A DNA stretch of 64,000 nucleotides, taken from NCBI GenBank assembly GCA_010672825.2, contig JAAHFU020000006.1:1-64000 (forward strand), read 5' to 3'. Position 1 is the first letter of the stretch; each line of letters begins with the position of its first letter. Made by a program: the position numbers and the translations under genes. Of the stretch, positions 25,842 through 64,000 are shown one piece after another. The notes beneath the pieces are model-generated. The model worked only from the letters and a program-made list of their open reading frames with translations. It was not told the origin of the DNA and searched no databases. This DNA is from Leptolyngbya sp. SIO1E4 (GTDB lineage Bacteria > Cyanobacteriota > Cyanobacteriia > Phormidesmidales > Phormidesmidaceae).

Positions 25842-26540
25842 CTAAGACCACTCCCATTCCCAGGGGACAAATAAAAGAGTCATTTCCGACCAAGCCAGGA
25901 AGACCATTATCCCAACGCGCCACGGCCAGGGTCCTAGCCAATTAATTAGGGGGAATTGGCCTGGGTGAAAGTCACCCAGATAGCCATAGTTGAAGCCAAA
26001 CGCAGCATTAATCGGAAAGACACAGGCTACATAAAGCAGACCCACTCTCACCGCCCAGTGATAATCTCTGCGGGTAGGCCGAAATCGATGCACCACCGCC
26101 ATGTAAATTGCAGCACCCACAATAGTCGCATGATGAAGCCAAAAGAGCCAAAACAGAGGACTTAGCAGCCCCACTTGCAGATCAGGGATTAGCAGCCCCA
26201 GGCAACTAAAACCAATGCCCCAAAAATAGAGCAACGCGATCAGACATCGTTTTCGCCAAATGAAGGCTAACGCTACTAGCAGTGCCGCAATGTCACAGAT
26301 ATGAAGTGGGAGCGATCGCGCCGGATCAAAATTAGCCGGCAATAACCACCAGCCATGCAACGCTATCCATAGCAGTAGGTAAATTGTCGCAACTCGCTTT
26401 TCCAGTTTGATCAACTGGCATTTCCCCCGCTGCTGTGCCCCTAAAGCAATGATTTTCCCAACAATTACCGTCAGGCCACTCAAGATGACAACGTGAGTCA
26501 ATGAAAAAGGCTCAAACTGATGAAGGGAATTCTGAAACAT
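25842..26540 (-). CDS. TIGR02206/TMEM164-like integral membrane protein
   Basis: 232 residues, six or seven hydrophobic spans. SLPLHICDIAALLVALAFIW (about 75-94), WLHHATIVGAAIYM and FNYGYLGDFHPGQFPLINWLGPWPW are the conserved segments of the YwaF/TIGR02206 family. Function unknown in the family. Last gene of a run of minus-strand genes (psbU-1, aldo/keto reductase, hydrogenase protease, GNAT); 60 bp after the GNAT gene, so possibly the end of that operon. Confidence 0.75.
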   Translation of the reverse strand: MFQNSLHQFEPFSLTHVVILSGLTVIVGKIIALGAQQRGKCQLIKLEKRVATIYLLLWIALHGWWLLPANFDPARSLPLHICDIAALLVALAFIWRKRCLIALLYFWGIGFSCLGLLIPDLQVGLLSPLFWLFWLHHATIVGAAIYMAVVHRFRPTRRDYHWAVRVGLLYVACVFPINAAFGFNYGYLGDFHPGQFPLINWLGPWPWRVGIMVFLAWSEMTLLFVPWEWEWS

Positions 26541-26600
26541 GAAAACTTGTCGTTATCGTGTTCTTGAGAAAATGACACCGGCTGGTTGCAGGCTCCCTAA

Positions 26601-27119
26601 TTACGTCATCGCTAGGCCAAACTCGTCTCTATACCGAACAACACCGGATACTCCTGACATGACAACCTCATCCAAAATCAAGACCATGAAAGCCTGATCG
26701 GGAACATCTGCCCACTGACAACGGAGCCCCCTCTGGGAGGCGGGGACAAATCCGAAGCGAGGATAATACGTTGGGTGGCCTAGCACAATTACAAAAGGAC
26801 AGTGGCTTTGGCGCAGGATATCGAGACTGGTTTTGACTAGGTGAGTCCCGATATGCCGGCGTTGGTATCCAGGCAATACAGCCATTGGAGCAAGGCCCAT
26901 CCCCCGTGTCAGATCAGCATGCCCTTCAACCATCACTGGTGTAAAAAGAATGTGGCCAACAACTGCCTGCCCGGAGACGGCCACTAAAGATAAAGCATCC
27001 GGACAAGTCAACCGCAAACTATCGACAAGGTCAGCTTCCTGTAATTGACCAAAGGCCCTCTCATTGATGAGGCGAATTGACGGAATGTCGTCGGGTTTCT
27101 CCGGTCGGACTATAACCAT
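26601..27119 (-). CDS. GNAT N-acetyltransferase (YhbS-like)
   Basis: 172 residues from the ATG at 27119 (MVIVRPEKPDDIPSI). Full GNAT fold: ALSLVAVSGQAVVGHILFTP, MAVLPGYQRRHIGTHLVKTS (acetyl-CoA loop) and LGHPTYYPRFGFVPA, a signature of the YhbS branch. Overlaps the end of the hydrogenase protease gene by 59 bp, so the two are translated together. Substrate unknown. Confidence 0.85.
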   Translation of the reverse strand: MVIVRPEKPDDIPSIRLINERAFGQLQEADLVDSLRLTCPDALSLVAVSGQAVVGHILFTPVMVEGHADLTRGMGLAPMAVLPGYQRRHIGTHLVKTSLDILRQSHCPFVIVLGHPTYYPRFGFVPASQRGLRCQWADVPDQAFMVLILDEVVMSGVSGVVRYRDEFGLAMT

Positions 27120-27627
27120 TAGGGACTGTTTGAGCCACTGAGTCAATCAATTCTACGATCGCGTCTAATGCTTGTTCAACGCCTCGTTCTGCCAATCCTG
27201 AGAGTGGTTGCCCTGCGGTAAAGTCGCTAGCAGGTACTTCAACCCACCAAGCTTTAGGACAATGGCCATAAGCTGAGGCGGCCAATGCCAAGAGTGAACA
27301 CGGATCGCAAGAATGGCCAAAAGCAGGGACGGCTGACCCAGCTGTTTCAGAACCGCAAGCATCTAAGGACTTTATCTTAACGGCACCAACATCTTTTAAC
27401 TTGCAGGCATCCACAAAGATAGCGAAGTCAGCCGCTGTCAGTTTATCAGCGAGTTCTGGCGTCAGTTGGGTCACCAAGAATGCCTCGACGGCGGGTATTT
27501 TGAGTGTTTTCAGTCGTGAGATTACAGTTTGGCCAATTGCATCATCACCCCGTTGGGGGTTGCCATACCCAATGACCACAATAGTCGGCTTAGCTTCTGA
27601 AAAAGAACTATTTACAACCTCTGCCAT
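27061..27627 (-). CDS. Hydrogenase maturation protease (HycI/HoxW type)
   Basis: 188 residues. VIGYGNPQRGDDAIGQTVI (about 18-36) is the nickel-sensing N-terminal signature of these endopeptidases, which cut the C-terminal peptide of the [NiFe]-hydrogenase large subunit once Ni is inserted. FVDACKLKDVG supplies the second acidic ligand and FGHSCDPCSLLALA the His. The C-terminal tail (about 30 residues) overlaps the GNAT gene. With the broken hypD at 45.6-46.2 kb it indicates bidirectional-hydrogenase functions nearby; no structural hydrogenase genes are in the window. Confidence 0.85.
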   Translation of the reverse strand: MAEVVNSSFSEAKPTIVVIGYGNPQRGDDAIGQTVISRLKTLKIPAVEAFLVTQLTPELADKLTAADFAIFVDACKLKDVGAVKIKSLDACGSETAGSAVPAFGHSCDPCSLLALAASAYGHCPKAWWVEVPASDFTAGQPLSGLAERGVEQALDAIVELIDSVAQTVPNGYSPTGETRRHSVNSPHQ

Positions 27628-27688
27628 GGAACCTTACCTCCGTTGCTCTGCGATGATGTTTGCCATCTGAGGCTGTGATGGCATGACT

Positions 27689-28651
27689 CTAGTTGGGTTC
27701 CTCATTGACACAGTGGCCTGCATTATTGAGTTTTGCCATCTGCTCAGGAGAAAGGGTGAGATCTAGCGCCCCCAGGTTTTCTCGCATGTGCTCCGGTCTA
27801 CCCCCCGAGAAAACAGGTAGCAGAGGCGGTTGGCGATGCATCATCCAGGCCAGCACAACTTGGTTTGGAGTAGCCCCTAGTTCCTGGCCAACTTCTTGTA
27901 AGACTGCTATCCGGGCTTCTAGGTCAGGACCACTGTAAGTTGCTGGAATCGGGCGTTCGGGTCGCACATACGCTCCCCGGAGAAGTGGCGTGTAGGGCAG
28001 CATGGTTTTGCCACGGGCATCGCAATAGCTCATCAAGTCCTGGTTGATTAAGCGTTGGTCGCCAAAGTCGGCTCCTGGATTCGGACGCAGGTACGTGAAT
28101 CGCTGCTCGACACAGGTGAACCCAGCCCAACCTTGTGCCGCCGCGATCTCATCGGCATCAGCCAAGCGCCAGGCCCGATAATTGCTCGCCCCCACAAACC
28201 GGACCTTACCAGCTTGCACCAACTTATGAAAGGCTTCTAGGGTCTCTTCTAACGGTGTGTGCGAGTCATCTTTGTGGGCGTAGTACAAATCGAGATGCTG
28301 AATGCCCAAGCGATTCAGACTCTTTTCGCATTCTGAGATAATGGTTGACGCGGATAGGCCATCAGGGACATCTTCATAGCCAAACCCAACCTTACTGGCA
28401 ATGAAGAGTTCATCACGATTTCCTCGTTCCCGCAGCCAGCGTCCAATCACGACTTCGCTTTCGCCACCCTTGCCACCAACACTCCATTGGTTATAGCTGT
28501 TACCGGTGTCCATAAACATGCCCCCGGCTTCCCGATACAGGTCCATCAGTTCAGCCGATTGCTTGTAATTGTTGAGGGTACCAAATCGCAGCGTTCCCAA
28601 AGCTAAACAACTAACCTCAATACCTGTTTGGCTCAATTGAATCTTCTTCAT
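27689..28651 (-). CDS. Aldo/keto reductase
   Basis: 320 residues from MKKIQLSQTGIEVSCLALG. TIM-barrel with the catalytic tetrad visible: Asp in FMDTGNSYNQW, Tyr in the same motif, Lys in FIASKVGFGYED, His in LDLYYAHKDDSH. The NADPH-phosphate end (SGGRPEHMRENLGAL) is present. Reduces aldehydes or sugars; substrate unknown. 55 bp upstream of it ends psbU-1, same strand. Confidence 0.85.
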   Translation of the reverse strand: MKKIQLSQTGIEVSCLALGTLRFGTLNNYKQSAELMDLYREAGGMFMDTGNSYNQWSVGGKGGESEVVIGRWLRERGNRDELFIASKVGFGYEDVPDGLSASTIISECEKSLNRLGIQHLDLYYAHKDDSHTPLEETLEAFHKLVQAGKVRFVGASNYRAWRLADADEIAAAQGWAGFTCVEQRFTYLRPNPGADFGDQRLINQDLMSYCDARGKTMLPYTPLLRGAYVRPERPIPATYSGPDLEARIAVLQEVGQELGATPNQVVLAWMMHRQPPLLPVFSGGRPEHMRENLGALDLTLSPEQMAKLNNAGHCVNEEPN

Positions 28652-28705
28652 GACTATCTCCAACGCTACGGATTAAGTCTCGGCAGATCGAAATAGGCCG
28701 AGAAG

Positions 28706-29146
28706 CTATTTGTAAATTCCGGGATTAATGCGATCGCCGCCTTCAATCAAAGCGGGCTCAGAGGGAGTCACCACAAAATTATCGAGATTGGCTTTCAACA
28801 AATCGAGTTCGTGATCGCTTAGCCCTGGAATATCAAGCACCTCTTCCACCGTATTAAAGGGTGCATTTTGAATGATTTTTCGGGCTAGCGTTGGGTACAA
28901 TCCTCGATGCCGCCTGAAGGTCAGCACATTGGAATTATTCAAGTCAATCTTGGAACTGATTTCACCCAGCTTTTCATCCACAGGATTCCGGAATATCTCA
29001 GATAGGTTGTATGGGCTGTTCATGGTTTTGTGGACCATAAGTTGCGCGATTGCTGGCTGATTAAAGCCCAGCCCAAACCAGAAGACAAGCCACAGGGCAA
29101 GTCCTATGAAAAGGCCCATTAATAAACTCACAAAGTTTTTCATCAC
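28706..29146 (-). CDS. psbU: PsbU-like photosystem II extrinsic protein (copy 1)
   Basis: 146 residues. N-terminal signal (SLLMGLFIGLALWLVFWFGL, cleavage near AIAQ), then the PsbU core: KIDLNNSNVLTFRRHRGLYP, TLARKIIQNAPFNTVEEVLD, IPGLSDHELDLLKANLDNF and the C-terminal ALIEGGDRINPGIYK that is diagnostic. The helix-hairpin-helix-like core docks on the lumenal face of PSII and stabilises the oxygen-evolving complex. It lacks the direct-repeat promoter. Located among anaerobic-type genes rather than photosynthesis genes. Confidence 0.88.
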   Translation of the reverse strand: MMKNFVSLLMGLFIGLALWLVFWFGLGFNQPAIAQLMVHKTMNSPYNLSEIFRNPVDEKLGEISSKIDLNNSNVLTFRRHRGLYPTLARKIIQNAPFNTVEEVLDIPGLSDHELDLLKANLDNFVVTPSEPALIEGGDRINPGIYK

Positions 29147-29521
29147 TATCCACCTCCCTCTAGACAGCTAGAAAGCGTCAATAAGCCTCTCATTACAGGA
29201 CATCTGTTTCTGACTGCGAGTCTTTCATGACAGCCCTATTCAGTACCCGAAGACCCTCTAGCAATAGAGCCGATACCCCAACGAACATAACCAAAGCTGT
29301 CAGTTCACTTATCACTAGATAGGCTTCTGATAAGTTGAGTTACCTAGAGAGCAATAAGAAACTCTTCATGCTTTGTTTTGTTGATGAACTTGTAGTACCG
29401 TTCTGTGGCATACTCATCCCCCCAGTGATACCAGGATGCATTCTGGTGTTTATGCCTTTGCCTAGCCAGTAATCGTCACACTGAGTGATTCTGGCTTCCA
29501 GATTGTTGATGGATTTCTCTG
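29147..29521. other. Intergenic region upstream of psbU-1
   Basis: Possible 40-codon minus-strand peptide from a GTG near 29313 (ISELTALVMFVGVSALLLEG, one hydrophobic span, ending about 29194) but without a clear ribosome-binding site; too weak to call a gene. Nothing else seen. Confidence 0.3.
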
Positions 29522-29710
29522 CTAAGCAGGTGCGCCAATGTGGTAAGAAACGCCACGATATTTCAGATCCAGTGACGGTTGAGGCAAAGCTTTTATCAGC
29601 TTATGAAAGTGAAAAGTTCTGCCTCGATACTTACCAATTTCCGTGCTTTCAGAGATTGGGACTTGGGGAGGAGTATACTCGTAGCTAACACCCCGATAGG
29701 TAAGTTTCAT
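29522..29710 (-). CDS. DUF4278 small protein (copy 1)
   Basis: 62 residues from the ATG at 29710 (AGGAGGTGAAGTC directly upstream). The DUF4278 motif KLTYRGVSYEYTPP starts at residue 2, and a second half DLKYRGVSYHIGA lies at the C terminus, so the YRG(V/A)-Y unit is repeated. Function unknown; restricted mainly to cyanobacteria. A direct-repeat promoter lies at 29859-29889 and, divergently about 280 bp away, the structured-RNA candidate A. The other DUF4278 gene (59643) has the same neighbour. Confidence 0.8.
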   Translation of the reverse strand: MKLTYRGVSYEYTPPQVPISESTEIGKYRGRTFHFHKLIKALPQPSLDLKYRGVSYHIGAPA

Positions 29711-29858
29711 GACTTCACCTCCTGATAATTTCGAGTTCACTGACAACGTCAGAAGCTGGCCTTGTAAAAAATGCTGTGACACAGATTCCAGAAAACTTTT
29801 GAAGCAGTTTAGACACTTGAAGAAAATTAGTGACTCACACTAACTTTCTTCTACTTTG

Positions 29859-29889
29859 ATGCTAGACAAAGAATTTGAGAATCTTGTGA
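29859..29889 (-). promoter_or_regulatory. Direct-repeat promoter, site 8 (DUF4278 copy 1)
   Basis: Gene strand: TCACAAGATTCTCA (29889-29876), 11 nt, TAGCAT (29864-29859). Confidence 0.75.
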
Positions 29890-29987
29890 AGATACTTTGG
29901 TGTATTGCCATCATGTAGCACCCGTTAAGCAACGTAAATTCGATCGCAGAAAATTTCTAGGGAATCAGGATTTGCTAATATATAGAT

Positions 29988-30208
29988 GAGGATGTAGTTC
30001 ATCCTCCTTCGACATAGGAAAAAGTGGTAATGCCTGTATTAGGCAAGGCCAAACGAGGATCTAGCAAGAGGTAGCTATGTGAAGGAAAATGTGAGAACTG
30101 CATGCTCGTGTTCCAAATTAGAAAGGTTCAGGAGGGAACCATTGGAAAACCTGATAGAGGAGGTTTGACGGGGGCTGTTGGCACGTGACAGATTCCCCGT
30201 CAAATTTT
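29988..30208 (+). ncRNA. Candidate structured small RNA, copy A
   Basis: A stretch of about 175 nt is homologous to 59370-59204 on the minus strand. Features in order: 5' hairpin GAGGATG/CATCCTC (29988-30006), small hairpin GCCTGTATTAGGC, the shared block GGCAAGGCCAAAC, AGGATCTAGCAAGA with TAGC/GCTA pairing, GCTATGTGAAGG, GAACTG and the hairpin GGTTCAGGAGGGAACC exposing AGGAGG in its loop. It ends in an intrinsic terminator (30164-30208). No reading frame is conserved between copies. A TATATA stretch at 29979-29984 could be the -10. Start inferred. Could instead be a remnant of a mobile RNA (for example an IS605/IscB-associated or intron RNA), which I cannot test. Confidence 0.55.
30164..30208 (+). 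terminator. Rho-independent terminator of candidate RNA A
   Basis: TTTGACGGGG (30164-30173) and CCCCGTCAAA (30195-30204) form a perfect 10-bp stem followed by TTTT. Confidence 0.8.
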
Positions 30209-30316
30209 GTGTTTTAGAGGCGTATTTCTTATAGCGCAAATCGAGCATCTATGGAGTAATCTTCAGGATGCGATCGCATTGTTAGAACTGACTTGTCAAA
30301 AAGGAGTTCAGTAGCA

Positions 30317-30436
30317 ATGTTAACGATTCAATCACCAATGGCATATCGCAATTTGCGATTGCTTCTGCTGATCCTGTTGGCCCTAATGCTGATGGGGCTA
30401 TGGCAGGAACTTACAGTTGGCCTCCCCCTTGCATGA
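30317..30436 (+). CDS. Small single-span membrane protein (39 aa)
   Basis: ATG at 30317 is preceded by AAGGAG 11 nt upstream. Short N terminus (MLTIQSPMAYRNLR), one hydrophobic helix LLLLILLALMLMGLW, and a short tail. Too small for family assignment; lies just after the candidate RNA A, divergent from nothing and convergent with the hydrolase gene. Confidence 0.45.
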   Translation: MLTIQSPMAYRNLRLLLLILLALMLMGLWQELTVGLPLA

Positions 30437-30481
30437 TTGCAATGACTCTCGTGAGACGTGGCAATCCTGTCTTGCATTCAC

Positions 30482-31147
30482 TCATGTCAAGTATTTTCGG
30501 AACCATTGGCTAGCCAGCTGAGCAACTTGTTCTAACGTGCCGGGTTCCTCAAACAGGTGAGTGGCCCCTGGAATAATCTTTAGGTGCTTTTCGGCAGGAA
30601 TGTACTGATACGCCTTTTGATTCAGAGCCACAACGGGTGTGTCATCGCCTCCCACAATCAACAATGTGGGCACTTTTATACGGGTAAGCGTGGAACCGGC
30701 CAAATCGGGTCGCCCACCCCGTGAAACAATGGCTGATACGGCATCTGGGCACTCGGCAGCCGCCATCAGCGCGGCAGCACTGCCCGTACTAGCACCGAAA
30801 TAACCAATTTTCAGCTGGCGAGTAGTGGGGTTCTGCCTTATCCAATCGGTAGCCCTTATCAATCGGTCTGTCAGTAACCCAATGTCGAAGCGGAGACGCC
30901 GGGTTAGTTGGTCAATTTGTTCTTCTTCGACTGTTAGTAGGTCAAACAGAAAAGTAGCTAAACAAGCTTCCTGCAAGACTTCTGCTACATAGCGGTTGCG
31001 CGGGCTCCGCCGACTGCTGCCGCTACCATGAGCAAACAGAACAATCCCTTGAGCATTCGTTGGGATCACGAGATTCCCAGTCAATTGCACTGAACCAGCT
31101 GTAATTGAGATTGAGGAGTCATTATTTTGTTTTGGCAAAGTCTTCAT
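30482..31147 (-). CDS. Dienelactone-hydrolase-like alpha/beta hydrolase
   Basis: 221 residues. FAHGSGSSRRSPRNRYVAEV (oxyanion region, about 38-57), nucleophile GYFGASTGSAAALMAAA (about 114-130), Asp in VGGDDTPV, His in GATHLFEEPG: complete triad. RRLRFDIGLLTDRLIRATDW between core strands is typical of the hydrolases often linked to phosphoribosyltransferase genes. Substrate unknown. Related proteins occur in hypoxia/dormancy gene sets of other bacteria (inference for this one). Confidence 0.8.
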   Translation of the reverse strand: MKTLPKQNNDSSISITAGSVQLTGNLVIPTNAQGIVLFAHGSGSSRRSPRNRYVAEVLQEACLATFLFDLLTVEEEQIDQLTRRLRFDIGLLTDRLIRATDWIRQNPTTRQLKIGYFGASTGSAAALMAAAECPDAVSAIVSRGGRPDLAGSTLTRIKVPTLLIVGGDDTPVVALNQKAYQYIPAEKHLKIIPGATHLFEEPGTLEQVAQLASQWFRKYLT

Positions 31148-31317
31148 GGGTGTACCCTCCTGATTCAGACAACAGCGTTTGCAGCGGTGGGGATGAGGTC
31201 GGCGTTCTCATTGTGCTGGGCTAATTCTCGTCATCGGTTGTTTGAGCAAAGTTCTCATACCAAAGACCGATCGCATAGAAGGGAGCTGGGGTGGCCAGAC
31301 AAATAAACTGATCGACC

Positions 31318-31572
31318 TCAGTTTTTAGCGACTGAGTTGGGGGACTCGATGGAAAGATACCCATAAGTAAACACGGCTTGAGGATTTATGCCAGCTACCT
31401 GTTCCAGTGGGATATATCCTTGATCGCTCGATAAGTAGACAATGCGTCCTTTCTCATCCACCCAAATGTCTTGGATTTCTCCCAAATGCTTAGCCGTTGC
31501 ACTGTCTACCGTGGCGAGACCGATCATCTGGCTATAACGGATAACACTGAGCATCGTATTGAATACCTTCAC
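31318..31572 (-). CDS. PRC-barrel domain protein
   Basis: 84 residues, single PRC-barrel: IRYSQMIGLATVDSATAKHL, GEIQDIWVDEKGRIVYLSS, YIPLEQV. The fold is shared with photosynthetic reaction-centre subunit H and RimM and usually mediates protein binding. It has a direct-repeat promoter 11-41 bp upstream. The length is shorter than the tandem-PRC stress proteins of cyanobacteria. Confidence 0.75.
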   Translation of the reverse strand: MKVFNTMLSVIRYSQMIGLATVDSATAKHLGEIQDIWVDEKGRIVYLSSDQGYIPLEQVAGINPQAVFTYGYLSIESPNSVAKN

Positions 31573-31582
31573 TCTCTAATCT

Positions 31583-31613
31583 ACCCTAGGCAAACATCTT
31601 GAGGACTTTGTGA
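31583..31613 (-). promoter_or_regulatory. Direct-repeat promoter, site 9 (PRC-barrel)
   Basis: Gene strand: TCACAAAGTCCTCA (31613-31600), 11 nt, TAGGGT (31588-31583). The very short leader (about 5-10 nt) implies a later start or near-leaderless mRNA. Confidence 0.75.
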
Positions 31614-31732
31614 AGGCAGGCGGTGAGTTTTTCCCGTCTGAGAAAACTACAGTTCTGAAACTAGATGGGGTTTATTTAGGGGCATCACGCTTGCCTCTTG
31701 AGGCTGAATTCCGCACTTGGAATCGACTTTCG

Positions 31733-32761
31733 CTAGAGTGGGAGATTCTTCGCGGCCATGTGTAAATAGGTTTGAGCTCGCTGAAACCAAGCGGCGGCAT
31801 CAAGGTGTCCGGGTTCTTTCATGTGCCAGACAGCTAGCTTAGCCCGTAAGCAAGCTCGATAGGCTTTGTAAAACTGAATTAAAGCATCGGGTGGAGTATC
31901 TTGAGCCACATAACAGTAGTGGGTGAGGATTTGATCGCCAACCCAAGCAGCTCCCAAACGATCGCACTCTAAAGACAAAAAGGCCAACTCATCGACACAA
32001 TCAAGAATTCGCAGCGATCGGTCAAACTCTAAACAGTCAATAATCGCGACTTCAGGTCTTAGACAAATGTGCTCAGGTCGTAAATCTCCATGACCTTCGA
32101 TGATTTTGCCTTGATCAAGACGGTCATTAAATATCTCTGGCCTAGCTTCTAGAAAGGCTAGCAGATACGATATCAAATCGCTAATCAGTTGGCTAGATAA
32201 ACCATTCGCATAAAGCTTAAGTTCCTGAAGCGTTGTCTGCAGATCTAACTTAAGCCTGCCTAGATAGATCATGCTAGATAGATTAACCGGAGGCAAGGTC
32301 TGGTAGAAATTGACCAAATGCTGCGCAATTCGGTCAGGATCTGCCCCTTCGACGGTTCCCCACTGAATGGCCACATCCAGCATATCTTCTGCTGGCAGGC
32401 GACGCATTTTTACGAGCCAATCAACAACACGACCATTGCCACCTAGTTGTAGCGTCCCCTGAGGTGTAAACATGAGTGGAACGACTTGTAAGTAAGCCTG
32501 AGGGGCCAATCGTTGGTTAAGCTGCAGTTCAGCTTGACAGTCTTGATGTCTGGCTGCAGGCGTACTGAAATCCAGAAATCTGTAGCGGACAGGTTTTTTA
32601 AGCTTATAAGCATACTGCTGGGTTAAGAACACCCAAGACATATGGGTTTCAATAATCTCAACTCGCAGGCAGCCATTGGCTGAGTTCCCAGGATAACTGT
32701 TTGGCTGACTCAGGAACTGAACCTTTTCTGGAGTACTCACTTGCGAATTAATTTTCTGCAT
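31733..32761 (-). CDS. Aminoglycoside-phosphotransferase-like kinase, APH domain only
   Basis: 342 residues. LTQQYAYKLKKPVRYRFLDF (about 47-66) holds the ATP-binding Lys region, GHGDLRPEHICLRPEVAIID (about 225-244) is the catalytic loop with Asp and the metal Asp, followed by CLEFDRSLRILDCVDELAFL. It resembles the N-terminal part of APH-ATPase fusion proteins such as mycobacterial Rv2004c, but the P-loop ATPase half is absent. Substrate unknown; antibiotic resistance should not be assumed. Divergent from psbU-2. Confidence 0.75.
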   Translation of the reverse strand: MQKINSQVSTPEKVQFLSQPNSYPGNSANGCLRVEIIETHMSWVFLTQQYAYKLKKPVRYRFLDFSTPAARHQDCQAELQLNQRLAPQAYLQVVPLMFTPQGTLQLGGNGRVVDWLVKMRRLPAEDMLDVAIQWGTVEGADPDRIAQHLVNFYQTLPPVNLSSMIYLGRLKLDLQTTLQELKLYANGLSSQLISDLISYLLAFLEARPEIFNDRLDQGKIIEGHGDLRPEHICLRPEVAIIDCLEFDRSLRILDCVDELAFLSLECDRLGAAWVGDQILTHYCYVAQDTPPDALIQFYKAYRACLRAKLAVWHMKEPGHLDAAAWFQRAQTYLHMAAKNLPL

Positions 32762-32868
32762 GCTGTAGGTGCTTGCTTAACTCTAGGGTGCAACAAATTG
32801 AACTCGCAAGTAGCCAAGCTGTACAAGAATTTACATCAAAAACCCACTGCACTAAAGTTCAAGTTTCC

Positions 32869-32899
32869 TCATAAATTCCTCATGATTTAAATTTAATTT
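32869..32899 (+). promoter_or_regulatory. Direct-repeat promoter, site 10 (psbU-2)
   Basis: TCATAAATTCCTCA (32869-32882), 11 nt, TAATTT (32894-32899). Gene starts at 32950; leader about 45 nt. Confidence 0.8.
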
Positions 32900-32949
32900 G
32901 AGAAATAGATTTTGTTCCAATAGATGATTAAGTATTTGAGGAAACTGAT

Positions 32950-33366
32950 ATGCTTCTGATGCACTCATGGGTGAGTTTAGGCATGGCCTTTCTTATCAGT
33001 ATTTTTGTTTGGTTAGGATGGGATATGCCAGCGATCGCGGCTAACGAAGTCAATCTCCAGACAAGCCTATCTGCAAATAGTCAGGTGTCAACCTTATCTG
33101 AGAGATTATGTGTCGATACGGGACAAAAAATTGACTTGAATAATGCTAATCTTGTAGCCTTCACAGATTGTCCAGGGTTCTATCCTACGCTGGCAGCGAT
33201 CATTGTGCAGCAAGGTCCTTACGATCGCGTTGAAGATGTTTTAAATGTTCCGGATCTGAATGAGCAGCAACAGCAATTGCTACAGGCAAACTTGGAATTT
33301 TTCATGGTATCAACACCGGTTGTTCCTTTAGCAATGAGGATGCCGCCGAAACCAGCAGCGAGGTGA
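32950..33366 (+). CDS. Divergent PsbU-like protein (copy 2)
   Basis: 138 residues, GAGGAAAC before the ATG. Signal segment (WVSLGMAFLISIFVWLGW, cleavage near PAIAANE), then the PsbU core in diverged form: GQKIDLNNANLVAFTDCPGF, YPTLAAIIVQQGPYDRVEDV, LNVPDLNEQQQQLLQANLEF. The C-terminal ALIEGGDR-Y signature of PsbU is missing and two cysteines (LCVDTG, TDCPGF) are added that could form a disulfide. It has the direct-repeat promoter, unlike copy 1, suggesting a condition-specific lumenal partner of PSII. Confidence 0.8.
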   Translation: MLLMHSWVSLGMAFLISIFVWLGWDMPAIAANEVNLQTSLSANSQVSTLSERLCVDTGQKIDLNNANLVAFTDCPGFYPTLAAIIVQQGPYDRVEDVLNVPDLNEQQQQLLQANLEFFMVSTPVVPLAMRMPPKPAAR

Positions 33367-33421
33367 GGCCATCTTGAGTCCTGAAAAGGGATGAGGCGAT
33401 CGCGATGACCGGCAAAGGTTA

Positions 33422-33458
33422 TATTCGAGATGTGTCATTACAGTTCACATCTCGAATA
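33422..33458 (+). terminator. Inverted repeat downstream of psbU-2
   Basis: TATTCGAGATGTG and its exact reverse complement (13-bp arms, 11-nt loop), 56 nt after the psbU-2 stop. No T-run follows, so it may be a transcript-stabilising hairpin or a weak bidirectional terminator. Confidence 0.5.
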
Positions 33459-33466
33459 CCTGGATA

Positions 33467-33815
33467 TTAGCCAAGGTACTTATCGTAGCAGTGGTACATG
33501 ATGCGTCCTACGCCGCCCATTGACTCAGCGAACCTTCTGGATCTTATATTGGCCTCGTTCACAGGATGAAAGAATGCCTTCTGCAAGCCTCGCTCTTCAT
33601 AGCTGCGATAGAGAGAGATCGCTAGCCTTGTCTTCATCGCCAGAACAATCGAGAAGTTGGCACAAAGCTTCGGATTTTAGGGGCGAGTGATTGTCCCTAG
33701 ACACAGCGATTTCCTGCTTTGTAATCAGTGTTTTGAATGCAGTCAGTGCTCGGCAAAGAAGAATTCGAGCAAGATTGCCCAAATGCTCTCCTAGTTGACG
33801 ATGAAGATTTGCCAA
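33467..33815 (-). pseudogene. Unidentified gene remnant, two frames
   Basis: Minus-strand frame 33815-33597 (ANLHRQLGEHLGNLARILLC) and, in another frame, YRSYEERGLQKAFFHPVNEA then NIRSRRFAESMGGVGRIMYH ending at 33467. The latter reads like real protein sequence (a GNAT-like NIRSRRFAESMG), but no intact product can be assembled. Confidence 0.3.
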
Positions 33816-33952
33816 GGCTGTCTACCTAAACCCCTGTAGCAAGTCTATTAAGCAGAAAAAGTCGGGCTAATCACCCTATTTGGGGGTGTTTCCAAGACTC
33901 AGGTCTGCATAACGCACCAATTTAGTGGGTTGCCCGATCAAGATCCGTATAG

Positions 33953-34010
33953 CTCTTCATTTCGGGTGTTTATGCTGATAATTATCAGCATAAACACCCG
34001 AAATGAAGAG
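33953..34010. repeat. 58-bp perfect palindrome
   Basis: Positions 33953-33981 and 33982-34010 are exact reverse complements (29 bp each) with no spacer; the outer ends read CTCTTCATTTCGGGTG and CACCCGAAATGAAGAG. Two imperfect hairpins flank it with the shared core GGCTAATCACC (33871 and 34030). It sits 84 bp before the integron-type cassette boundary. Confidence 0.95.
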
Positions 34011-54213: not shown

Positions 54214-55329
54214 CTAACCGTTATTCTTAAGCGCCCAAAAAATAAATTCATCATCCAGCAGGCCGGTTTGGATTAAAGTATCTTCAATTTGCATCAGTAT
54301 TTTAAGCCACGAGTTAGCAAAGTCATCTTGATTCGCCCTCTTAAAATCGAAATGACCTGACATATATGAGAGGATAGTACCCCCAAACCCTCTTCTCTCA
54401 AGAACTTCAAACGTTTCGGAGAATAAATCCTTCAATTTGAAGCCAGATATGGCTTCTGAAGGATCCCATGCTCTAATCGCTTCTTCAGAAGGGGGAACAT
54501 AAAAAATCCTCATGTTTTCCTGGGGGGTTGCGGGATAGTTACCCTCCTGATCTCGAGGAAAAGGTCGCAAAGTTTTAGGTAAAACAGCCAATGCAGCATT
54601 GATCCAGCGCACCTGATAATCTGGCAATTGAAAGCGAAACGGGCCATGATGCTCAACTCCAAACATAAGACCACCATTCACAAGCTTACCCTTCAGTATT
54701 TGCAAACAATTTTCAATATTTTCAATATGGTGTAAAACACCTTCAAAAATAATGAAGTCGAATATCCCGTCAAATTCTTTTAAATCTCCATTCAAATCTG
54801 CAACAATGTATTTTACATTCTTATAACCAAGCTCCTGAGATTTCTCCGCAGCTCTTGAAAGCGCTTTATCTGCAATATCGGATGCAATTATCTCGCCAGA
54901 AAATCCATTTTTACAAAGTTCACGCTCTATCCAACCCTCATTTGCACCTAATATTAGACAACGGTAACTGGTTTGAGCTTTATTTGAAGGTTTCTTTCCT
55001 ATGGCTTCTGCCAAATAATTCTGTATTGTGTAGGAAAGCCAATGGGTATTTTCATCCCCCGTAACTTTTCGCTGAATATTTTCGACACACTCGTTACAAC
55101 CTAACCAAATACCGTCATAGGTTACGGCTTCGTCAGCGTTCCACGGATTATTGGAATTAGCTTCATTCCCGTCAGGACTAGCCTCATTCTTATCAAGACT
55201 AATTTCATTCTTATCAAAACCAACCTCATCTTCAAAAGATAAGCTTTCTGATACATCGGCTATATCCTTATGAAAGTTGAAAAGCTGCCTTACATAACCG
55301 AAAACTTTTGACAATAATAAAATAATCAT
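54214..55329 (-). CDS. SAM-dependent methyltransferase, class I
   Basis: 371 residues. Rossmann motif I LILGANEGWIERELC (about 128-142), motif II GEIIASDIADKALSRAAEKS, motif III YIVADLNGD, motif IV DFIIFEGVLHHIENIENCLQ. A short N-terminal hydrophobic stretch (IILLLSKVFGYV) and a heptad-like repeat KNEISLD-KNEASPD-GNEANSN (about 38-58) precede it. CNECVEN might bind zinc. The C-terminal YVPPSEEAIRAWDPSEAISG region is typical of methyltransferases acting with sugar or peptide pathways; substrate unknown. AT-rich, isolated; probably acquired. Confidence 0.75.
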   Translation of the reverse strand: MIILLLSKVFGYVRQLFNFHKDIADVSESLSFEDEVGFDKNEISLDKNEASPDGNEANSNNPWNADEAVTYDGIWLGCNECVENIQRKVTGDENTHWLSYTIQNYLAEAIGKKPSNKAQTSYRCLILGANEGWIERELCKNGFSGEIIASDIADKALSRAAEKSQELGYKNVKYIVADLNGDLKEFDGIFDFIIFEGVLHHIENIENCLQILKGKLVNGGLMFGVEHHGPFRFQLPDYQVRWINAALAVLPKTLRPFPRDQEGNYPATPQENMRIFYVPPSEEAIRAWDPSEAISGFKLKDLFSETFEVLERRGFGGTILSYMSGHFDFKRANQDDFANSWLKILMQIEDTLIQTGLLDDEFIFWALKNNG

Positions 55330-55590
55330 AAATCTGAGAGCCTATTTCTAAAGGTATTAATCAGCTTATGAAAACCAGAACAAACTCCAACAAGACTCTT
55401 ATCATTCTTCAATCAAACGAAGAATAGACATCAAAATCTAGTTGAAGACTTCAACTCAAATTAAATAGAAGAACATTATTCTTTAGGAAACAATATTAAA
55501 ATCTTGACAATCCTTATAAAAGCGTCATCTTCAAGCGGAACTACATTATTTTCATCAGTCTTATCAACTCACTAATATGGGTGTTTCGAA

Positions 55591-55767
55591 ACGGTAGGTC
55601 TATCAACAGGAATCACCCGTCCTGAAGCGCCAATTGGGGTACTGTGGACAGAAATAGTGGGCATGGTGCTAGGACGACTGGAGTTCTTTACCGTGATCAT
55701 CGGCGGCACACAGTTGTTGCAAGATGGAATGACGCTAGTTCTCAAAAATCTATTCGGTAGCGATTAG
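55591..55767 (+). pseudogene. C-terminal remnant of a TrkH/KtrB potassium transporter
   Basis: 58 codons open to 55767: TVGLSTGITRPEAPIGVLWT then EIVGMVLGRLEFFTVIIGGT, the last pore-loop and transmembrane segment of TrkH/KtrB subunits (LSTGIT, GRLEFF). No start codon and no upstream part; a remnant. Confidence 0.7.
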
Positions 55768-55797
55768 AGGAAAATCCAGCCAAAACTTATGTTGCCA

Positions 55798-56862
55798 TCA
55801 ATCCACTGTAAGGCTCGTGGGGAGAGAGTCCCCTTCAGCGAACACCACATCCGCTTGTTCTGTGCCATCTCTCTGTGCTGACTCCAATAACTCCACAATT
55901 GAACCTCCACTATGGAGTCTGCGAATCGCTTCAGCAAACAGTGGTGTGGTATCCAGAATCTTGAGTTTGTCCTTCACAGCACCTGACGTCAAACGGAAGG
56001 GTGAAATTGTATTAGTAATGACAATTTGATCGAGATTTGGGGTTGCCAAAATCTGGTTGGATTCCTCAGCAAAAACACCATGGGAGGCGGCTGCATAGAC
56101 TTTGATTGCGCCTTGGTGATGACAGGCATTCGCTGTTCGAGCTAACGTCGTGCCGCTACTGATCAGGTCATCAATGATAATTGCAATGCGACCTTGGATG
56201 TCACCGGCAATCATTTCCCCGGAAACGACACCCGCGCTGCGATATTTCTCGGTAAAGGCAATGGGAATGTCTTGATGTAGCTTATCGCTGAGAACGCTTC
56301 GAAAGGCTTCAGCCCGCTTGACACCACCAAAATCAGGCGACACTACAACAGCCTCGTCATCGCGCACCAGTGGAGCAAAATGATGCACAAAGATGGTTTT
56401 CCCTTCCAAATGCTCAGTCGGGCATCGAAAGGCATTTTGAAAAGCTGCTAGGTTATGGACATCTAGAGTGACAACGAGATCGCATCCTATCGCCTCAAAA
56501 AGATAGGCCATATATCGGGTCGTCACCGGATCGCGGAATTTTGTTTTGCGATCTTTGCGGGCGTAGCAGAGATAAGGAACTACAGCGGTTACTCGCGCAG
56601 CGGAGGCATCCTTAAGTGCCCCAATAAAAAAGAGCAAGCGGCAGAGTTTATCGTTGACGCTGGCATGAGGCTCACCGTAAAGCGATTGGATGACGTAAAC
56701 ATCCTGTCCACGCACATTGATGAGCGATCTCGTCTTATGCTCACCATCTTCAAAATCCCGTTCTTTATGGGGGCTCAGAGCAATACCCAGATGCTCAGCA
56801 ACACGTTCACCGAAGTACCGACTGGCATTGAGGCTAAAAAGCTTAATGGCTGAATTGTTCAT
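55798..56862 (-). CDS. prs: Ribose-phosphate pyrophosphokinase
   Basis: 354 residues. Transfers pyrophosphate from ATP to ribose 5-phosphate, giving PRPP for nucleotide, His and Trp synthesis. [20 protein letters not shown] (about 37-56), [20 protein letters not shown] (flexible loop), [14 protein letters not shown], and the PRPP loop [19 protein letters not shown] (about 231-249). A C-terminal tail of about 30 residues exceeds the 315-residue classical form, so it may be a second, condition-specific Prs. Its direct-repeat promoter lies about 45 bp upstream. Confidence 0.9.
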
Positions 56863-56891
56863 AGCAGGTCTCCTAATCAGCCTTTATAGCC

Positions 56892-56922
56892 AGCGTAGAA
56901 CGGAGATCTGAGGAAATCGTGA
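56892..56922 (-). promoter_or_regulatory. Direct-repeat promoter, site 15 (prs)
   Basis: Gene strand: TCACGATTTCCTCA (56922-56909), 11 nt, TACGCT (56897-56892). Leader about 25 nt. Confidence 0.8.
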
Positions 56923-56968
56923 GGGGTTACCTACCATAAAGTCCTCAGCGTGTTTGCGGCATTACTCT

Positions 56969-57304
56969 TTACATTGAGGCCAGTTCTAGAAATGCGATCG
57001 CATCGCAAACATCATCTCGCAGATGCTCATCCATCTGATCGGCTAGCTTCAGTTCATCTTCCAGCAGAATAGCTATTGCACTACGAACAGGTCCCTTATG
57101 CTTCGGCAACCTCAAGGCTTCAGGTATACCCTCAGGCATCATAGCTGCTCGGTCTGACACATCTGTCAATTCATAGCTGGGATCTAAGGGAGTCTTGTTT
57201 GGACGAGGAGTTGCCTTCGCCTCGGCCTGCATATTCCAAGGATCTGGCACTGGCGAAAATACTGAGTCGTGGGAAGCATCTTGGGGCCTGATAACGGACG
57301 ACAT
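56969..57304 (-). CDS. Hypothetical cyanobacterial protein
   Basis: 111 residues; Pro/Asp-rich disordered first half (SPVPDPWNMQAEAKATPRPN) and an alpha-helical acidic second half (SAIAILLEDELKLADQMDEH, DDVCDAIAFLELAS). Not recognised. Lies upstream of prs on the same strand but has no direct-repeat promoter of its own. Confidence 0.5.
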   Translation of the reverse strand: MSSVIRPQDASHDSVFSPVPDPWNMQAEAKATPRPNKTPLDPSYELTDVSDRAAMMPEGIPEALRLPKHKGPVRSAIAILLEDELKLADQMDEHLRDDVCDAIAFLELASM

Positions 57305-57610
57305 AATGCCCCTCCTACATTCAATTAATTGTTTACTGAGGGCTCAGCCGCTTCTTTCACAGCATCGAATAAAATCCCTCTACCTTCAATATAACAGCCC
57401 AAAAGTTACTGCTCTGACAAGAAGTATTTCTCTGAAAATCAGGATTAAAAGCGGATACAAATGGATGATGAAAGCTCCCACGCAAAACGAACTGATTCTA
57501 GATATTTGATGATAGGCATCCCCGCAATCGGTGTACTTCATCTTGCCAAGCTAACGGTTATCAATTCAGGCTCTAGATGAGTTAAATCAATACAATTTAA
57601 AGGGCGACAT

Positions 57611-58916
57611 CCTTGGTGGTGCAGAAAACTTTTGAGAGTCTCACGCTGAGAATCTGACTACTTTTGAGAATTCAATGCGAGTGTCTAAAGTCTCTCGTTT
57701 GCGCTTCGAGGCGCAAGCAGGGGGAGGATTAGCCTGAGGCAACCGTTTGAGCAGAGGCAACATTAAGCGGTGATAACTGAGTCTGGCGCATTCTCTGAGG
57801 CCCAGTTGCAGCAAACTCAATCCTCGCTGTCCGTGCCAATCAAGCATCGCCCGCCGTCCTTGTTGAACCAGCATCACACCCAAGATGACCGCAATCAGAT
57901 AGGCGGTATCGAGCAGCATAAATAGACGAGTGAGGACTGGGGCCTCCCGCAGTCCGGATTGCAATACCTCAAAGGCCGCTGACTTGTAGTCTTTGAAATG
58001 CGGTTCAATACCGCCAAAGCGCTCACCGTAGAGCGCAAAGGTTTGCAGAGACGGGGACTGGTTGGACAAGACGGCCCAAGCCTCCCCCGCGATGGGGACA
58101 TGCGCCGTGGCGAGATGCGCCGTCAACTCATCGCCAACGGTGATTGCCTCGAAGAGGTAGGCCTGCTGTACGGGTGGGAGTAGTTGCGCGACAGTCCGAG
58201 TGTTGCCCGAGACTAAAGTGACCTGTAAATCAGATTTCACGCGCAGTGCCCAATGCCATCCCTGCTGCTGGAGCCAGCGCAACAACTCGCGATGCTGGAA
58301 CCCCCGGTCTGCTAGAAACATGACCTGACAGCCCGCAGGTAGGACCGCCTTGGCGGTTTCTAAAACTTCCCGGTAATCCGCAAAGCCAACGGTGGCGCTG
58401 CCGTGCTCTAAAACAACTTGAGCCAGGGTCAAAGAGCGACCGCCCCAGGCCAGGCACACTTCAATGAGGCAGAATTGATCCCACAGCATGCTGGTATCCA
58501 AGACCAGGGTGACCGTTGTCTCCTCAAAGCCTTCCAGCATCGCTTGCAGAAGCGGAACATAGAAGCGTTCAGCACTGATAGAGTCGTTGTGTAGCAAGTA
58601 AGCCAGACGCTCTAGATGAGCCCGCGCACTACACCCACGATGCGATAGATAGGGAATCCATTTTCCCAAAACGGCACTTTGCGATTGCAGGATGGCGGCG
58701 ACCGCCTCGGCAACGCCTTGCAGATGGCGGCGATCTTGGGGGCTGGCCCACTGACCCAGTTGGTCGTGCAATTGACGATACAGTAAAGGAGTCTCCATGT
58801 AGATGCTGGTAAGTTGGGGAACTTGAGCATCTCATGGAGCGCTCACTTCACCAATCTTGTCTCATCTGAGACTCACTAATTTTCAGGGCTTTCAGGACTT
58901 TTCTGCACCACTAAGG
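57611..58916 (-). mobile_element. IS4-family insertion sequence
   Basis: 1306 bp, inverted ends CCTTGGTGGTGCAGAAAACT and, on the other strand, CCTTAGTGGTGCAGAAAAGT (2 mismatches in 20), flanked by the 8-bp target duplication GGCGACAT (57603-57610 and 58917-58924). Inserted in the left terminal repeat of the MITE-like element. Confidence 0.9.
57641..58798 (-). CDS. IS4-family transposase
   Basis: 385 residues, intact. DDE features: first Asp in TLVLDTSMLWDQFCLIEVCL (about 98-117), second Asp in VMFLADRGFQHRELLRWL (about 180), and YGERFGGIEPHFKDYKSAAF (about 258-277), which is the Y-2-R-3-E-6-K-like signature with E in GIEPHFKDYK. Helical C terminus. Assignment to IS4 rests on these motifs and the 8-bp target duplication. 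Confidence 0.85.
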   Translation of the reverse strand: METPLLYRQLHDQLGQWASPQDRRHLQGVAEAVAAILQSQSAVLGKWIPYLSHRGCSARAHLERLAYLLHNDSISAERFYVPLLQAMLEGFEETTVTLVLDTSMLWDQFCLIEVCLAWGGRSLTLAQVVLEHGSATVGFADYREVLETAKAVLPAGCQVMFLADRGFQHRELLRWLQQQGWHWALRVKSDLQVTLVSGNTRTVAQLLPPVQQAYLFEAITVGDELTAHLATAHVPIAGEAWAVLSNQSPSLQTFALYGERFGGIEPHFKDYKSAAFEVLQSGLREAPVLTRLFMLLDTAYLIAVILGVMLVQQGRRAMLDWHGQRGLSLLQLGLRECARLSYHRLMLPLLKRLPQANPPPACASKRKRETLDTRIEFSKVVRFSA

Positions 58917-59203
58917 GGCGACATCTTCCCTTTGGACTTTGGACAAATTTGCGAGGATCATGGGTCGAACTGAATTTCTGAAAACCTTGTATAAAAAGCT
59001 TTGTAGCGATTCTTGGCCTGTCGAAAAGCTTTGATTTGGGAGATATCTGGGAGTTGGACAAAATTGGCTTGAGCCTCAAAATCTCGAATATCTCCAATCT
59101 GAGAGCTTCCTGGTGGCTGGAACCACCGGAAACTCGTTAAATTAGTGATTCCTGCAGGTGCCTTTTTGTCCAAAGTCCAGTTCCCTCGATATCGCCCTTT
59201 AAA

Positions 59204-59370
59204 CGCTCCTTATTGAGTTTTTCAATGGTTCCCTCCTGAACCTTCCTACTTGGAATCATGAGCACACAGTTCGCACAATCACCTTCACATAGCCGCTTCT
59301 TGCTAGATCCTTAGTTTGGCCTTGCCGGTGTCGGTGTTGCCATTTCTTCCTAAGAGAGATTGGATCTCTG
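59204..59370 (-). ncRNA. Candidate structured small RNA, copy B (3' end cut by MITE)
   Basis: Minus-strand homologue of 29988-30163. The 5' hairpin is AGAGAT/ATCTCT (59369-59355): position kept, sequence changed on both sides. Then GGCAAGGCCAAACTAAGGAT, CTAGCAAGAAGCGGCTATG (TAGC/GCTA pairing kept), GTGCGAACTG and the identical hairpin GGTTCAGGAGGGAACC. The MITE begins at 59203, just where copy A enters its terminator stem, so copy B lacks the terminator. Divergent from the DUF4278 gene at 59643, as in copy A. Confidence 0.5.
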
Positions 59371-59378
59371 ATTTTTAG

Positions 59379-59418
59379 TTTCCATCACAGAACATTCATT
59401 TCCATCACAGAACATTCA
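59379..59418. repeat. 20-bp tandem repeat upstream of RNA B
   Basis: TTTCCATCACAGAACATTCA twice head to tail (59379-59398, 59399-59418), in the presumed promoter region of candidate RNA B. Confidence 0.9.
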
Positions 59419-59642
59419 ATGGTGCTGCCGTATTGGTGATGGAGTCGTAACGCTTTGTGTATCTTTCATGGCGAAGTGTTGAAAATCGCAAGTCTCGACA
59501 AAATGTATCGTAAAATACAGGTGTGAAGAAGAAATCGTTCATCTCTCTGGTTTAGTGGTGTGAGCGATGGAATAGCAGAGAGACGGAAGTAGGGATTGTC
59601 CCGAAGGAACGCGCCTCAACTCACTTCAAGGAGGCAGGGACT

Positions 59643-60149
59643 ATGCAACTCACTTATCGCGGTGCTCACTACACTTATGCACCCAATCCCGTTCCCAAGT
59701 TTGGTTCAATATTGGCAACTGGGATCTATCGGGGTGCTCCAGTATCCTTCCGGGCATTGGCAGAAATGCCTGAACAACCCAGGTTTAGTTTGAAGTGGCG
59801 AGGTGTGCCCTATCGGAGTGGTCCTAAAGTCCATAGGGTTCAGTCGACTGGGCCAGCAGCCACACCTGCAATGACGGCAACTGCGCCAGTGGCTACATCT
59901 GAGCCCAGCACCCCCTTGACACATGAATCCGCAATAGCAACCTCCAAGCTCAGTATTCTTGAACGAGCCAGAACGCTCTTTATTCGCCGCCACCAAAAAG
60001 TTCGGCAGCGGGAACAATCGATGCTAGCTCGTTTAGATGAAGAGGTCGGGCTAGCTGCTAAGGATGCCGCTAACTACGAAAGCCAAGTTCAAGGCAAGGT
60101 GCCTCATGACTTTGCCGGATATGACCGGAGTGGCACAGCCATGAGCTAA
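59643..60149 (+). CDS. DUF4278 protein with long C-terminal extension (copy 2)
   Basis: 168 residues; AAGGAGG ten bases before the ATG. The DUF4278 repeats QLTYRGAHYTYAPN (residues 2-15) and SLKWRGVPYRSGPK (about 49-62) match copy 1. Copy 2 adds about 105 residues: a Thr/Ala/Pro linker and a basic helical part (LERARTLFIRRHQKVRQREQ). No direct-repeat promoter was found, in contrast to copy 1, but the divergent structured-RNA candidate is shared. Function unknown. Confidence 0.8.
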   Translation: MQLTYRGAHYTYAPNPVPKFGSILATGIYRGAPVSFRALAEMPEQPRFSLKWRGVPYRSGPKVHRVQSTGPAATPAMTATAPVATSEPSTPLTHESAIATSKLSILERARTLFIRRHQKVRQREQSMLARLDEEVGLAAKDAANYESQVQGKVPHDFAGYDRSGTAMS

Positions 60150-60399
60150 GGTTCCCTAAGGCAGATCCGTCTTATGCCCTGTCTGCTTCATATCCAGGAC
60201 TTGGGCTAGTCTGATTTCCAGATAGGGTTACAAGTTATATTTGCCGCGATAGGGCAGGGCCCGATGTCATGTGGCATTGGGCTTTTGTCTAATAATGAAC
60301 TGTGATGACTCTTTGCAGCGATATCGGTACCGGAGCTTCCATTAATCCTAATAGAATTAATCTTGCTGATGCAAAGACGCCTTGAGAACACATGCATCT

Positions 60400-60430
60400 T
60401 CACAATTCCCTCAGCTTATTTTCCTATTCT
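60400..60430 (+). promoter_or_regulatory. Direct-repeat promoter, site 16 (Hsp20 remnant, then GlcG-like gene)
   Basis: TCACAATTCCCTCA (60400-60413), 11 nt, TATTCT (60425-60430). The transcript would run through the Hsp20 remnant to the gene at 60683. Confidence 0.75.
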
Positions 60431-60434
60431 GACA

Positions 60435-60551
60435 ATGGAAGTTCTTTCCTGGCTTGTGAAAGATCAAGTAGCTACTGAATACAAAGATGGTGTTCTCAGT
60501 CTTACAATCCCGAAGTCTCAAGAAGAAGCTACTAAGGTCAAGGTTGCCTAA
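60435..60551 (+). pseudogene. Small heat-shock protein (Hsp20), C-terminal remnant
   Basis: From about 60455: VATEYKDGVLSLTIPKSQEE then ATKVKVA and stop, the end of an alpha-crystallin domain (YKDGVL-L-L-PK). The ATG at 60435 falls on the predicted transcription start, so it is probably not translated. A deletion has apparently joined promoter 16 to the hsp20 end. Confidence 0.7.
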
Positions 60552-60682
60552 CACTTGATGCTTGTAGGGCTTCAAGTTATTGACAGCCTTAAGTGGATAG
60601 CGACAAGCCGCCTTGCAAACATGATCGTTTATGAGGCGGTCACTGCGTATGTCAATTTGTGTAATGGCAAGAGGAGAGAACC

Positions 60683-61099
60683 ATGGATATTCAATACGCT
60701 GAAGCTCAATCGCTTGTGGAAGCGGCTATGACGATCGCTCGGGAACGTAATGTCGCCGTCTCGGTTGCTGTTGTTGATACCCATGGTGACCTGGTTGCTT
60801 ATGGTCGGATGGATCAGGCAACCGTACAATCAGGGGTGTTAGCTCGGGCAAAAGCATATACGGCTGCCCGTGAGCGCATTCCCTCGTCTCAGGTGGGGCA
60901 ATGGGCTCAGAAGACTGGGAAGGACATGGGTTACTGGGTAGATCCCCAAATTACTGGAATGGCCGGAGGGCTACCGATCTTACTGAATCATAGGATGATT
61001 GGTGGGATGGGGATCAGTGGCCTCAGTGAGGAGGAGGATGAACAGCTTGTACAGGAGGCGATCAATCGCTGCTACCTGCAGGAGAATCGGGACTCATAA
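60683..61099 (+). CDS. GlcG/HbpS family (DUF336) protein
   Basis: 138 residues, GAGGAGAG before the ATG. Whole GlcG/HbpS domain: AEAQSLVEAAMTIARERNVA, VSVAVVDTHGDLVAYGRMD, VLARAKAYTAARERIPSSQV, GGLPILLNHRMIGGMGISGL, EDEQLVQEAINRC. HbpS of Streptomyces binds heme and senses oxidative stress with a two-component partner; for most members the role is unknown. Downstream of promoter 16. Confidence 0.85.
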   Translation: MDIQYAEAQSLVEAAMTIARERNVAVSVAVVDTHGDLVAYGRMDQATVQSGVLARAKAYTAARERIPSSQVGQWAQKTGKDMGYWVDPQITGMAGGLPILLNHRMIGGMGISGLSEEEDEQLVQEAINRCYLQENRDS

Positions 61100-61141
61100 A
61101 GCGCGCATGTTGATTCATGAACTTAACTGTTAGCGAACCGA

Positions 61142-61258
61142 TTAAAAGTCAAACTGGATGCCCCCGGCAAACATGCCCCTTTCATCATCGCTAAACACAT
61201 CTTCCACCCGCAGGTACAAACCCGACCCATTGGGTTCCCCAAGTGCCTGCGGTTTGGA
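61142..61258 (-). pseudogene. C-terminal fragment of a probable outer-membrane protein
   Basis: Frame reads PQALGEPNGSGLYLRVEDVF then SDDERGMFAGGIQFDF and stop: amphipathic strand and terminal Phe as in beta-barrel proteins. The frame stays open upstream but without recognisable homology or start, and it overlaps an antisense open stretch (61290-61402, EIHSFYTSYDRTGKPFDPNE). A remnant at best. Confidence 0.35.
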
Positions 61259-63941: not shown

Positions 63942-64000
63942 GGCCATAACCTCCCCGAATGATAAGTCAGCGCCTTGTACAAGCGAGGGAAAGACCGTCC

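Follow-up and report, generated by a model that had tools for sequence, protein, structure and literature searches.

Copy A, a complete small-RNA gene at 29985-30208 (+) of the window (the whole 64,000-nt stretch of DNA analysed here, which is part of contig C6 of the 8.2 Mb cyanobacterial genome G000), is best read as belonging to a new family of structured small RNAs, autonomous and widespread among cyanobacteria, and it is nearly certain to be a structured-RNA gene. It is composed of an extended -10 promoter, a folded core and an intrinsic terminator. The overall reading we favour, with a probability of roughly one half, is that of an autonomous structured sRNA with a translated short frame, in which the act of translation and not the peptide would matter and whose output would be exerted in trans in stress physiology.

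Copies in the host genome, promoter and fold

The host genome carries two more copies, namely copy B in the same window (59196..59372, -) and copy C on contig C4 (G000:C4:335099-335309), the latter detected by a whole-genome search with an identity of 79%. Copies A and B had been placed correctly by an earlier analysis made from the letters of the window only (hereafter the sequence-only reading), and their strong similarity is real, amounting to 81% identity across about 131 nt of alignment. They are not, however, the two equal copies they were taken for, as copy B is decayed: it keeps the core from P2 to P6 and an open 8-codon frame (59225-59199) but has no -10 box and no terminator, and its P1/P2 5′ arm is missing or scrambled. 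Copy C and a relative from Leptolyngbya sp. SIOISBB (G032), the only one retrieved by an exact-pattern scan of GTDB contigs, are intact like copy A, with promoter, core and terminator all present. The hairpin GGTTCAGGAGGGAACC, which had been described as invariant, and the terminator claimed for copy A are indeed there. The TAGC/GCTA pairing, likewise described as invariant, is not kept in copy C.

Copy B adjoins a DDE transposase gene (57641-58798). A short direct repeat, TTTCCATCACAGAACATTCA, occurs twice at 59380-59420, the expected site of the copy B promoter, and may have been left by the rearrangement in which this copy was truncated. At 30318-30437 (+), about 110 nt past the terminator of copy A, a hydrophobic protein of 39 residues may be encoded; it has a good Shine-Dalgarno (SD) sequence (AAGGAG) and a length under the cut-off of the ORF list.

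The promoter of copy A is represented by an extended -10 element, TG-C-TAATAT (29973..29981, +), with transcription predicted to start at about 29985-29988. The consensus of this element, TTTGTTAnTATATA, is located immediately upstream of the RNA, and a TANNNT sequence not more than 18 nt upstream of P1 was found in 33 of 33 relatives, compared with an average of 7.5 of 33 for other upstream windows. The intrinsic terminator (TTTGACGGGG ... CCCCGTCAAA-TTTT, 30164..30208, +), assigned from sequence, fold and its detection in relatives, is present in copy A and in most of them. Copy A thus combines a promoter of its own with an intrinsic terminator, as is characteristic of intrinsically terminated bacterial sRNAs, and is presumably transcribed.

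The fold of copy A is much more stable than those of shuffled sequences (z -5.0), and the proposal that it encodes a structured RNA was borne out by massive covariation among the relatives together with the terminator. The long-range helix P1 (29987-29990 and 29992-30000 with 30095-30108, span 29987..30108, +) pairs the 5′ end of the transcript with a strand about 95 nt downstream and is extended by P2, CCTTC.ACATAG / CTATGTGAAGG (30006-30010 and 30012-30017 with 30075-30085, +). P3 (30025-30028 with 30048-30051) and P4 (30032-30035 with 30041-30044) make up a two-part hairpin (30025..30051, +) with a conserved internal loop between them and a conserved AAAC after it. P5 (30060-30062 with 30067-30069, span 30058..30069, +), located in GATCTAGCAAGA, is a small hairpin inside the conserved GGATCTAGCAAGAG sequence, and this stretch is the most conserved part of the RNA, invariant in all four first copies. 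P6 (GGTTC-AGGAGG-GAACC, 30125..30140, +) carries the SD sequence AGGAGG in its loop (30130-30135). With P1-P2 closing a junction that bears the P3/P4 and P5 arms, the core has the architecture typical of domains that bind a ligand or a protein. Such folded cores often have a metabolite or a protein as their partner.

In an alignment of 53 sequences, which was fitted to the structure model, double-sided changes occur at 39 of the 39 modelled pairs, and 85.4% of cells are paired versus 31-43% in slid controls and 69.9% in shuffles, none of 500 shuffles reaching this level. Double-sided changes thereby cover all 12 pairs of P1, every pair of P2 (helices 2-4) and every pair of P3 and P4 (helices 5 and 6, with 97% and 94% of cells paired); P5 corresponds to helix 7 and P6 to helix 8 (88% of cells paired). 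When 12 relatives are aligned by MAFFT without reference to structure, P1 shows such changes at 8 of 13 pairs, with 81% of cells paired versus 26-42% in slid controls. The covariation originally claimed for the first hairpin (GAGGATG/CATCCTC versus AGAGAT/ATCTCT) rests on the decayed copy B and disappears in the 12 relatives, where no pair changes on both sides; it is in the long-range P1 pairing that the same 5′ strand is supported, by the 8 pairs just mentioned. This local 5′ hairpin, P0, has 82% of its cells paired in these relatives but does not exceed shuffles, and is therefore taken as a possible alternative fold only. A UUGG/CCAA hairpin following the SD holds within the host genome's own family, fails in others and was removed from model R3. 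Switching of the fold through UCCUCC:AGGAGG pairing is possible, 15 of 500 shuffles being equally high on one measure and more on other measures.

Distribution and comparison with known RNAs

A first covariance model built from four sequences recovered nine more genomes within the family (E < 0.1), including one false match in an EF-G gene, and the rebuilt models R2 and R3, used for wider searches, reached other families. Relatives were found with covariance models in 10 of 65 genomes of the same order, 29 of 390 genomes drawn from the class and 45 of 245 genomes of the order of G145, so that the search proposed by the sequence-only reading now places the RNA in at least 19 cyanobacterial families, mostly as a single copy per genome. 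Two hits, L019 (which is EF-G coding DNA) and L039, were excluded as false or doubtful. The distribution is patchy even within genera: one of seven genomes of genus g65 is positive, the sister species of G235 and of G212 are devoid of the RNA, and in the order of G215 it occurs in 2 of 36 genomes. No match was found in the plasmid, phage and viral collections.

Subfamily 2, comprising L073, L074 and L083-L099, possesses the same core and an extra 5′ hairpin domain (GTGGACACC...GGTGTCC). Upstream of it, GTNAA direct repeats with a period of about 10 nt are present at 10 of 20 loci versus 0.7 in shuffles, and they look like an OmpR-type response-regulator site. At L085, L088, L090, L095 and L099, in several genomes, this subfamily occurs in tandem copies or as repeated promoter-terminator units.

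No family of Rfam 15 matches any member tested at either gathering or relaxed thresholds, which settles the Rfam comparison suggested for this RNA; the only above-threshold match in the window is a glutamine riboswitch distinct from copies A and B. Structured RNAs of this size that covary so extensively yet have no Rfam entry are uncommon. No description of the RNA was found in the literature searched, although it may have been recorded earlier as an unnamed transcript.

None of the nearest known RNAs is described with this combination of features. In leader-peptide attenuators a single leader contains an SD, a short frame and a terminator, and the stop codon is so placed that a ribosome there could obstruct the terminator. 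The new RNA has a similar order of parts, and the stop of its short frame does overlap or abut the terminator, but at most loci there is no regulated gene after it, and the downstream genes differ instead of including a constant one on the same strand. The cyanobacterial sRNAs Yfr1, Yfr2, PsrR1 and IsaR1 are likewise free-standing, with their own promoter and terminator, a presence in many cyanobacteria and changing neighbours, but they are short (about 54-131 nt) and simpler, and the sources consulted (PMC6202907, PMC2662882) describe none of them with a junction core plus an 8-codon frame. The conserved cyanobacterial sRNA ncl0160 has a short frame using all three stop codons, though its predicted peptide of 23-25 aa is conserved and its start is mostly ATG (PMC4734099), as opposed to the 7-12 codons, UUG start and unconserved peptide of the new RNA. 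Finally, the odc1 motif is a structured RNA with a ribosome-binding site and a UUG-started frame of a constant 11 codons, but it is a cis-acting element of alpha-proteobacteria with a conserved peptide and the main ORF right behind (PMC8632094), while the new RNA has no constant downstream gene.

Gene neighbourhood

The RNA has no constant neighbour of any kind. The downstream genes differ and many lie on the opposite strand, as does the next gene at roughly 40% of the loci, and convergent or divergent neighbours are common. Several genes nevertheless recur nearby in unrelated cyanobacteria, namely those for PsbU paralogues (5 genes), alpha/beta hydrolase (4), phosphoribosyltransferase (4), aldo/keto reductase (4), PRC-barrel proteins (3), host-attachment/baeRF proteins (3) and Hsp20 (2), which we read as a shared stress-gene island, presumably linked to low oxygen. 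The window itself holds a stress-type gene island at 26000-34000 and 55000-64000, including two PsbU paralogues (28706-29146 and 32950-33366), a ribose-phosphate pyrophosphokinase (55798-56862), an HbpS-like gene (60683-61099), a Lon protease (61419-63947) and genes for aldo/keto reductase, PRC-barrel and alpha/beta hydrolase proteins. An RNA family found repeatedly in such islands provides a concrete handle on how cyanobacteria regulate them.

DUF4278 genes are directly beside the RNA at 5 of 57 loci (A, B, G235, G232 and G212), which exceeds chance by a rough estimate, and one more is about 4 kb off. They are divergent in the host genome, where the reported distances proved accurate (271 bp for B; 275 bp for A when measured from the ATG at 29710), whereas in G235, G232 and G212 they follow the RNA on its own strand. 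The suggestion that gene and RNA had been duplicated as a module did not survive the wider comparison, since copy C has no DUF4278 neighbour and, with 5 of 57 loci in two arrangements, the module is real as a neighbourhood and not as a property of the family; co-occurrence in other cyanobacteria is a minority feature, missing from most members. The sequence-only reading had also named what would tell against it, a known intron or transposon RNA with copies scattered independently of DUF4278. One half of this was seen, the loci being mostly independent of DUF4278, while the other half, a link to any intron or transposon family, was not.

The host genome has nine DUF4278 genes. A glutamine riboswitch (RF01739, 55.8 bits, 59534-59615, +) is located directly upstream of the DUF4278 gene at 59643-60149, and for four of the genome's five glutamine riboswitches such a gene begins no more than about 150 nt downstream; the DUF4278 gene beside copy A has none. 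The association is already published, with DUF4278 genes elsewhere being controlled by this riboswitch (PMC6316151).

The short reading frame and its possible role

A micro-ORF at 30142..30168 (+) of copy A starts with UUG, has 8 codons (fMet-ENLIEEV) and ends with a UGA stop (30166-30168) at the base of the terminator. Throughout the members the frame is 7-12 codons long, usually 8, with its stop at or in the 5′ arm of the terminator, and in subfamily 1 the UUG follows AGGAGG by 5-9 nt, which is the spacing of an SD; in subfamily 2 there is no SD before the UUG. Among 35 distinct members the start codon is TTG in 33, CTG in one and GTG in one, never AUG, and the stop codon is TGA in 18, TAA in 13 and TAG in 4. 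A TTG frame of exactly 8 codons is present in 28 of 45 non-redundant members, compared with an average of 3.8 and a maximum of 12 in dinucleotide shuffles, and the combination ranks top of 549 triplet-by-length combinations, the runner-up scoring 16. Of 18 loci fetched after the rule had been set, which are mutually related and hence do not amount to 18 independent tests, 15 contain a TTG frame that runs for 8-11 codons and closes at the terminator (exactly 8 in 5 of them), and three, G405b, G517 and G581b, have no such frame. About seven members altogether are without a proper frame, the others being G360, G574, the other G405 copy and G528.

The stop ranges in position from -3 to +6 around the terminator stem, lying up to 3 nt ahead of it or as much as 6 nt within it, and this shift means that the register of the stem does not explain where the frame ends. 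Differences at codon positions 1/2/3 number 116/90/122, which is nearly flat and no clear coding signature; amino-acid conservation does not rise above nucleotide conservation, and a conserved peptide was rejected on these counts and on the variability of the residues. Judging by these patterns, the short frame is probably under selection and likely to be translated, and, somewhat less certainly, what matters is probably not the peptide.

The strict UUG together with the flat codon signal leaves room for an explanation purely at the RNA level, namely a non-coding trans-acting sRNA in which AGGAGG, the UUG motif and the loops serve as RNA-binding or base-pairing motifs and the apparent frame is a by-product of a conserved UUGAAAA-type motif lying at a fixed distance from the terminator. 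This agrees with the strong structure, the autonomous promoter and terminator, the unconserved peptide with its weak codon-position signal, the near-invariant UUG in place of AUG and the conserved UGUAAACC motif of many members; the use of all three stops, the length steps of three (8, 9, 10 and 11 codons), the correctly spaced SD of subfamily 1 and a stop untied to the terminator stem argue against it, and we consider it possible but doubtful. A dual-function sRNA with the 7-12 residue peptide as its active product would fit a frame kept across families and the motifs common to some groups, e.g. LKTQTF or LNNLNPEI, but seems very unlikely with a peptide that is close to unconserved family-wide.

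It is also quite unlikely that the RNA is a riboswitch or attenuator acting in cis as a leader, where a ribosome translating the short frame would keep the terminator from forming and transcription would enter the next gene. A riboswitch-like junction, SD, leader frame and terminator do follow each other in that order, the stop sits where a ribosome would block the terminator, and in G235, G232 and G212 a DUF4278 gene, a type controlled by glutamine riboswitches elsewhere (PMC6316151), is found roughly 150-250 nt further on the same strand. Such a downstream gene is, however, limited to these three loci, the genes that do lie on the same strand are unrelated, and the promoter belongs to the RNA itself. 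The patchy distribution and the transposase gene next to copy B could point to a part of a mobile element (intron, retron or transposon guide RNA), but this is highly improbable, given that no RT, TnpB, IscB or other nuclease gene recurs beside the RNA, that neither viral contigs, phages and plasmids nor the introns of Rfam yielded a match, and that one copy per genome is the rule.

In the favoured reading of an autonomous sRNA with a translated short frame, the extended -10 promoter would set the 5′ end of a transcript that folds into the P1-P2 helix, the junction and the arms and stops at the intrinsic terminator. The SD of subfamily 1 would be held in a weak hairpin before the UUG frame, and we propose that the folded core gates ribosome entry to it. 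Of the sequence-only reading of the AGGAGG loop, the identification as an SD sequence is retained, whereas competition for the anti-SD is less favoured than service to the RNA's own short frame. Once at the stop codon, a ribosome would mask the 5′ arm of the terminator and could in this way set termination, the structure of the 3′ end or the stability of the RNA. Given the lack of a constant downstream gene, the RNA itself, acting in trans, is the probable output, and the neighbours suggest a role in stress or low-oxygen physiology. The most specific version, which we put forward tentatively and regard as rather unlikely in all its parts together, is a phylum-wide class of trans-acting RNAs in which a junction sensing a ligand or protein gates translation of a near-constant 8-codon UUG frame with no role for the peptide, the ribosome stopped on the terminator arm being the output signal through RNA stability, ribosome capture or termination.

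If the frame is translated for its own sake, the RNA would be a rare example of an sRNA that stands alone and has translation as such at its centre. With the alignment and consensus at hand, tests by transcription, probing and mutation become straightforward in any culturable carrier. As a separate observation, at one locus (L022, G033:C11:7410224-7410449) the 5′ half of the RNA is swapped for unrelated sequence, and its 3′ half, like the frame and the terminator, differs hardly at all from the G002 copy.
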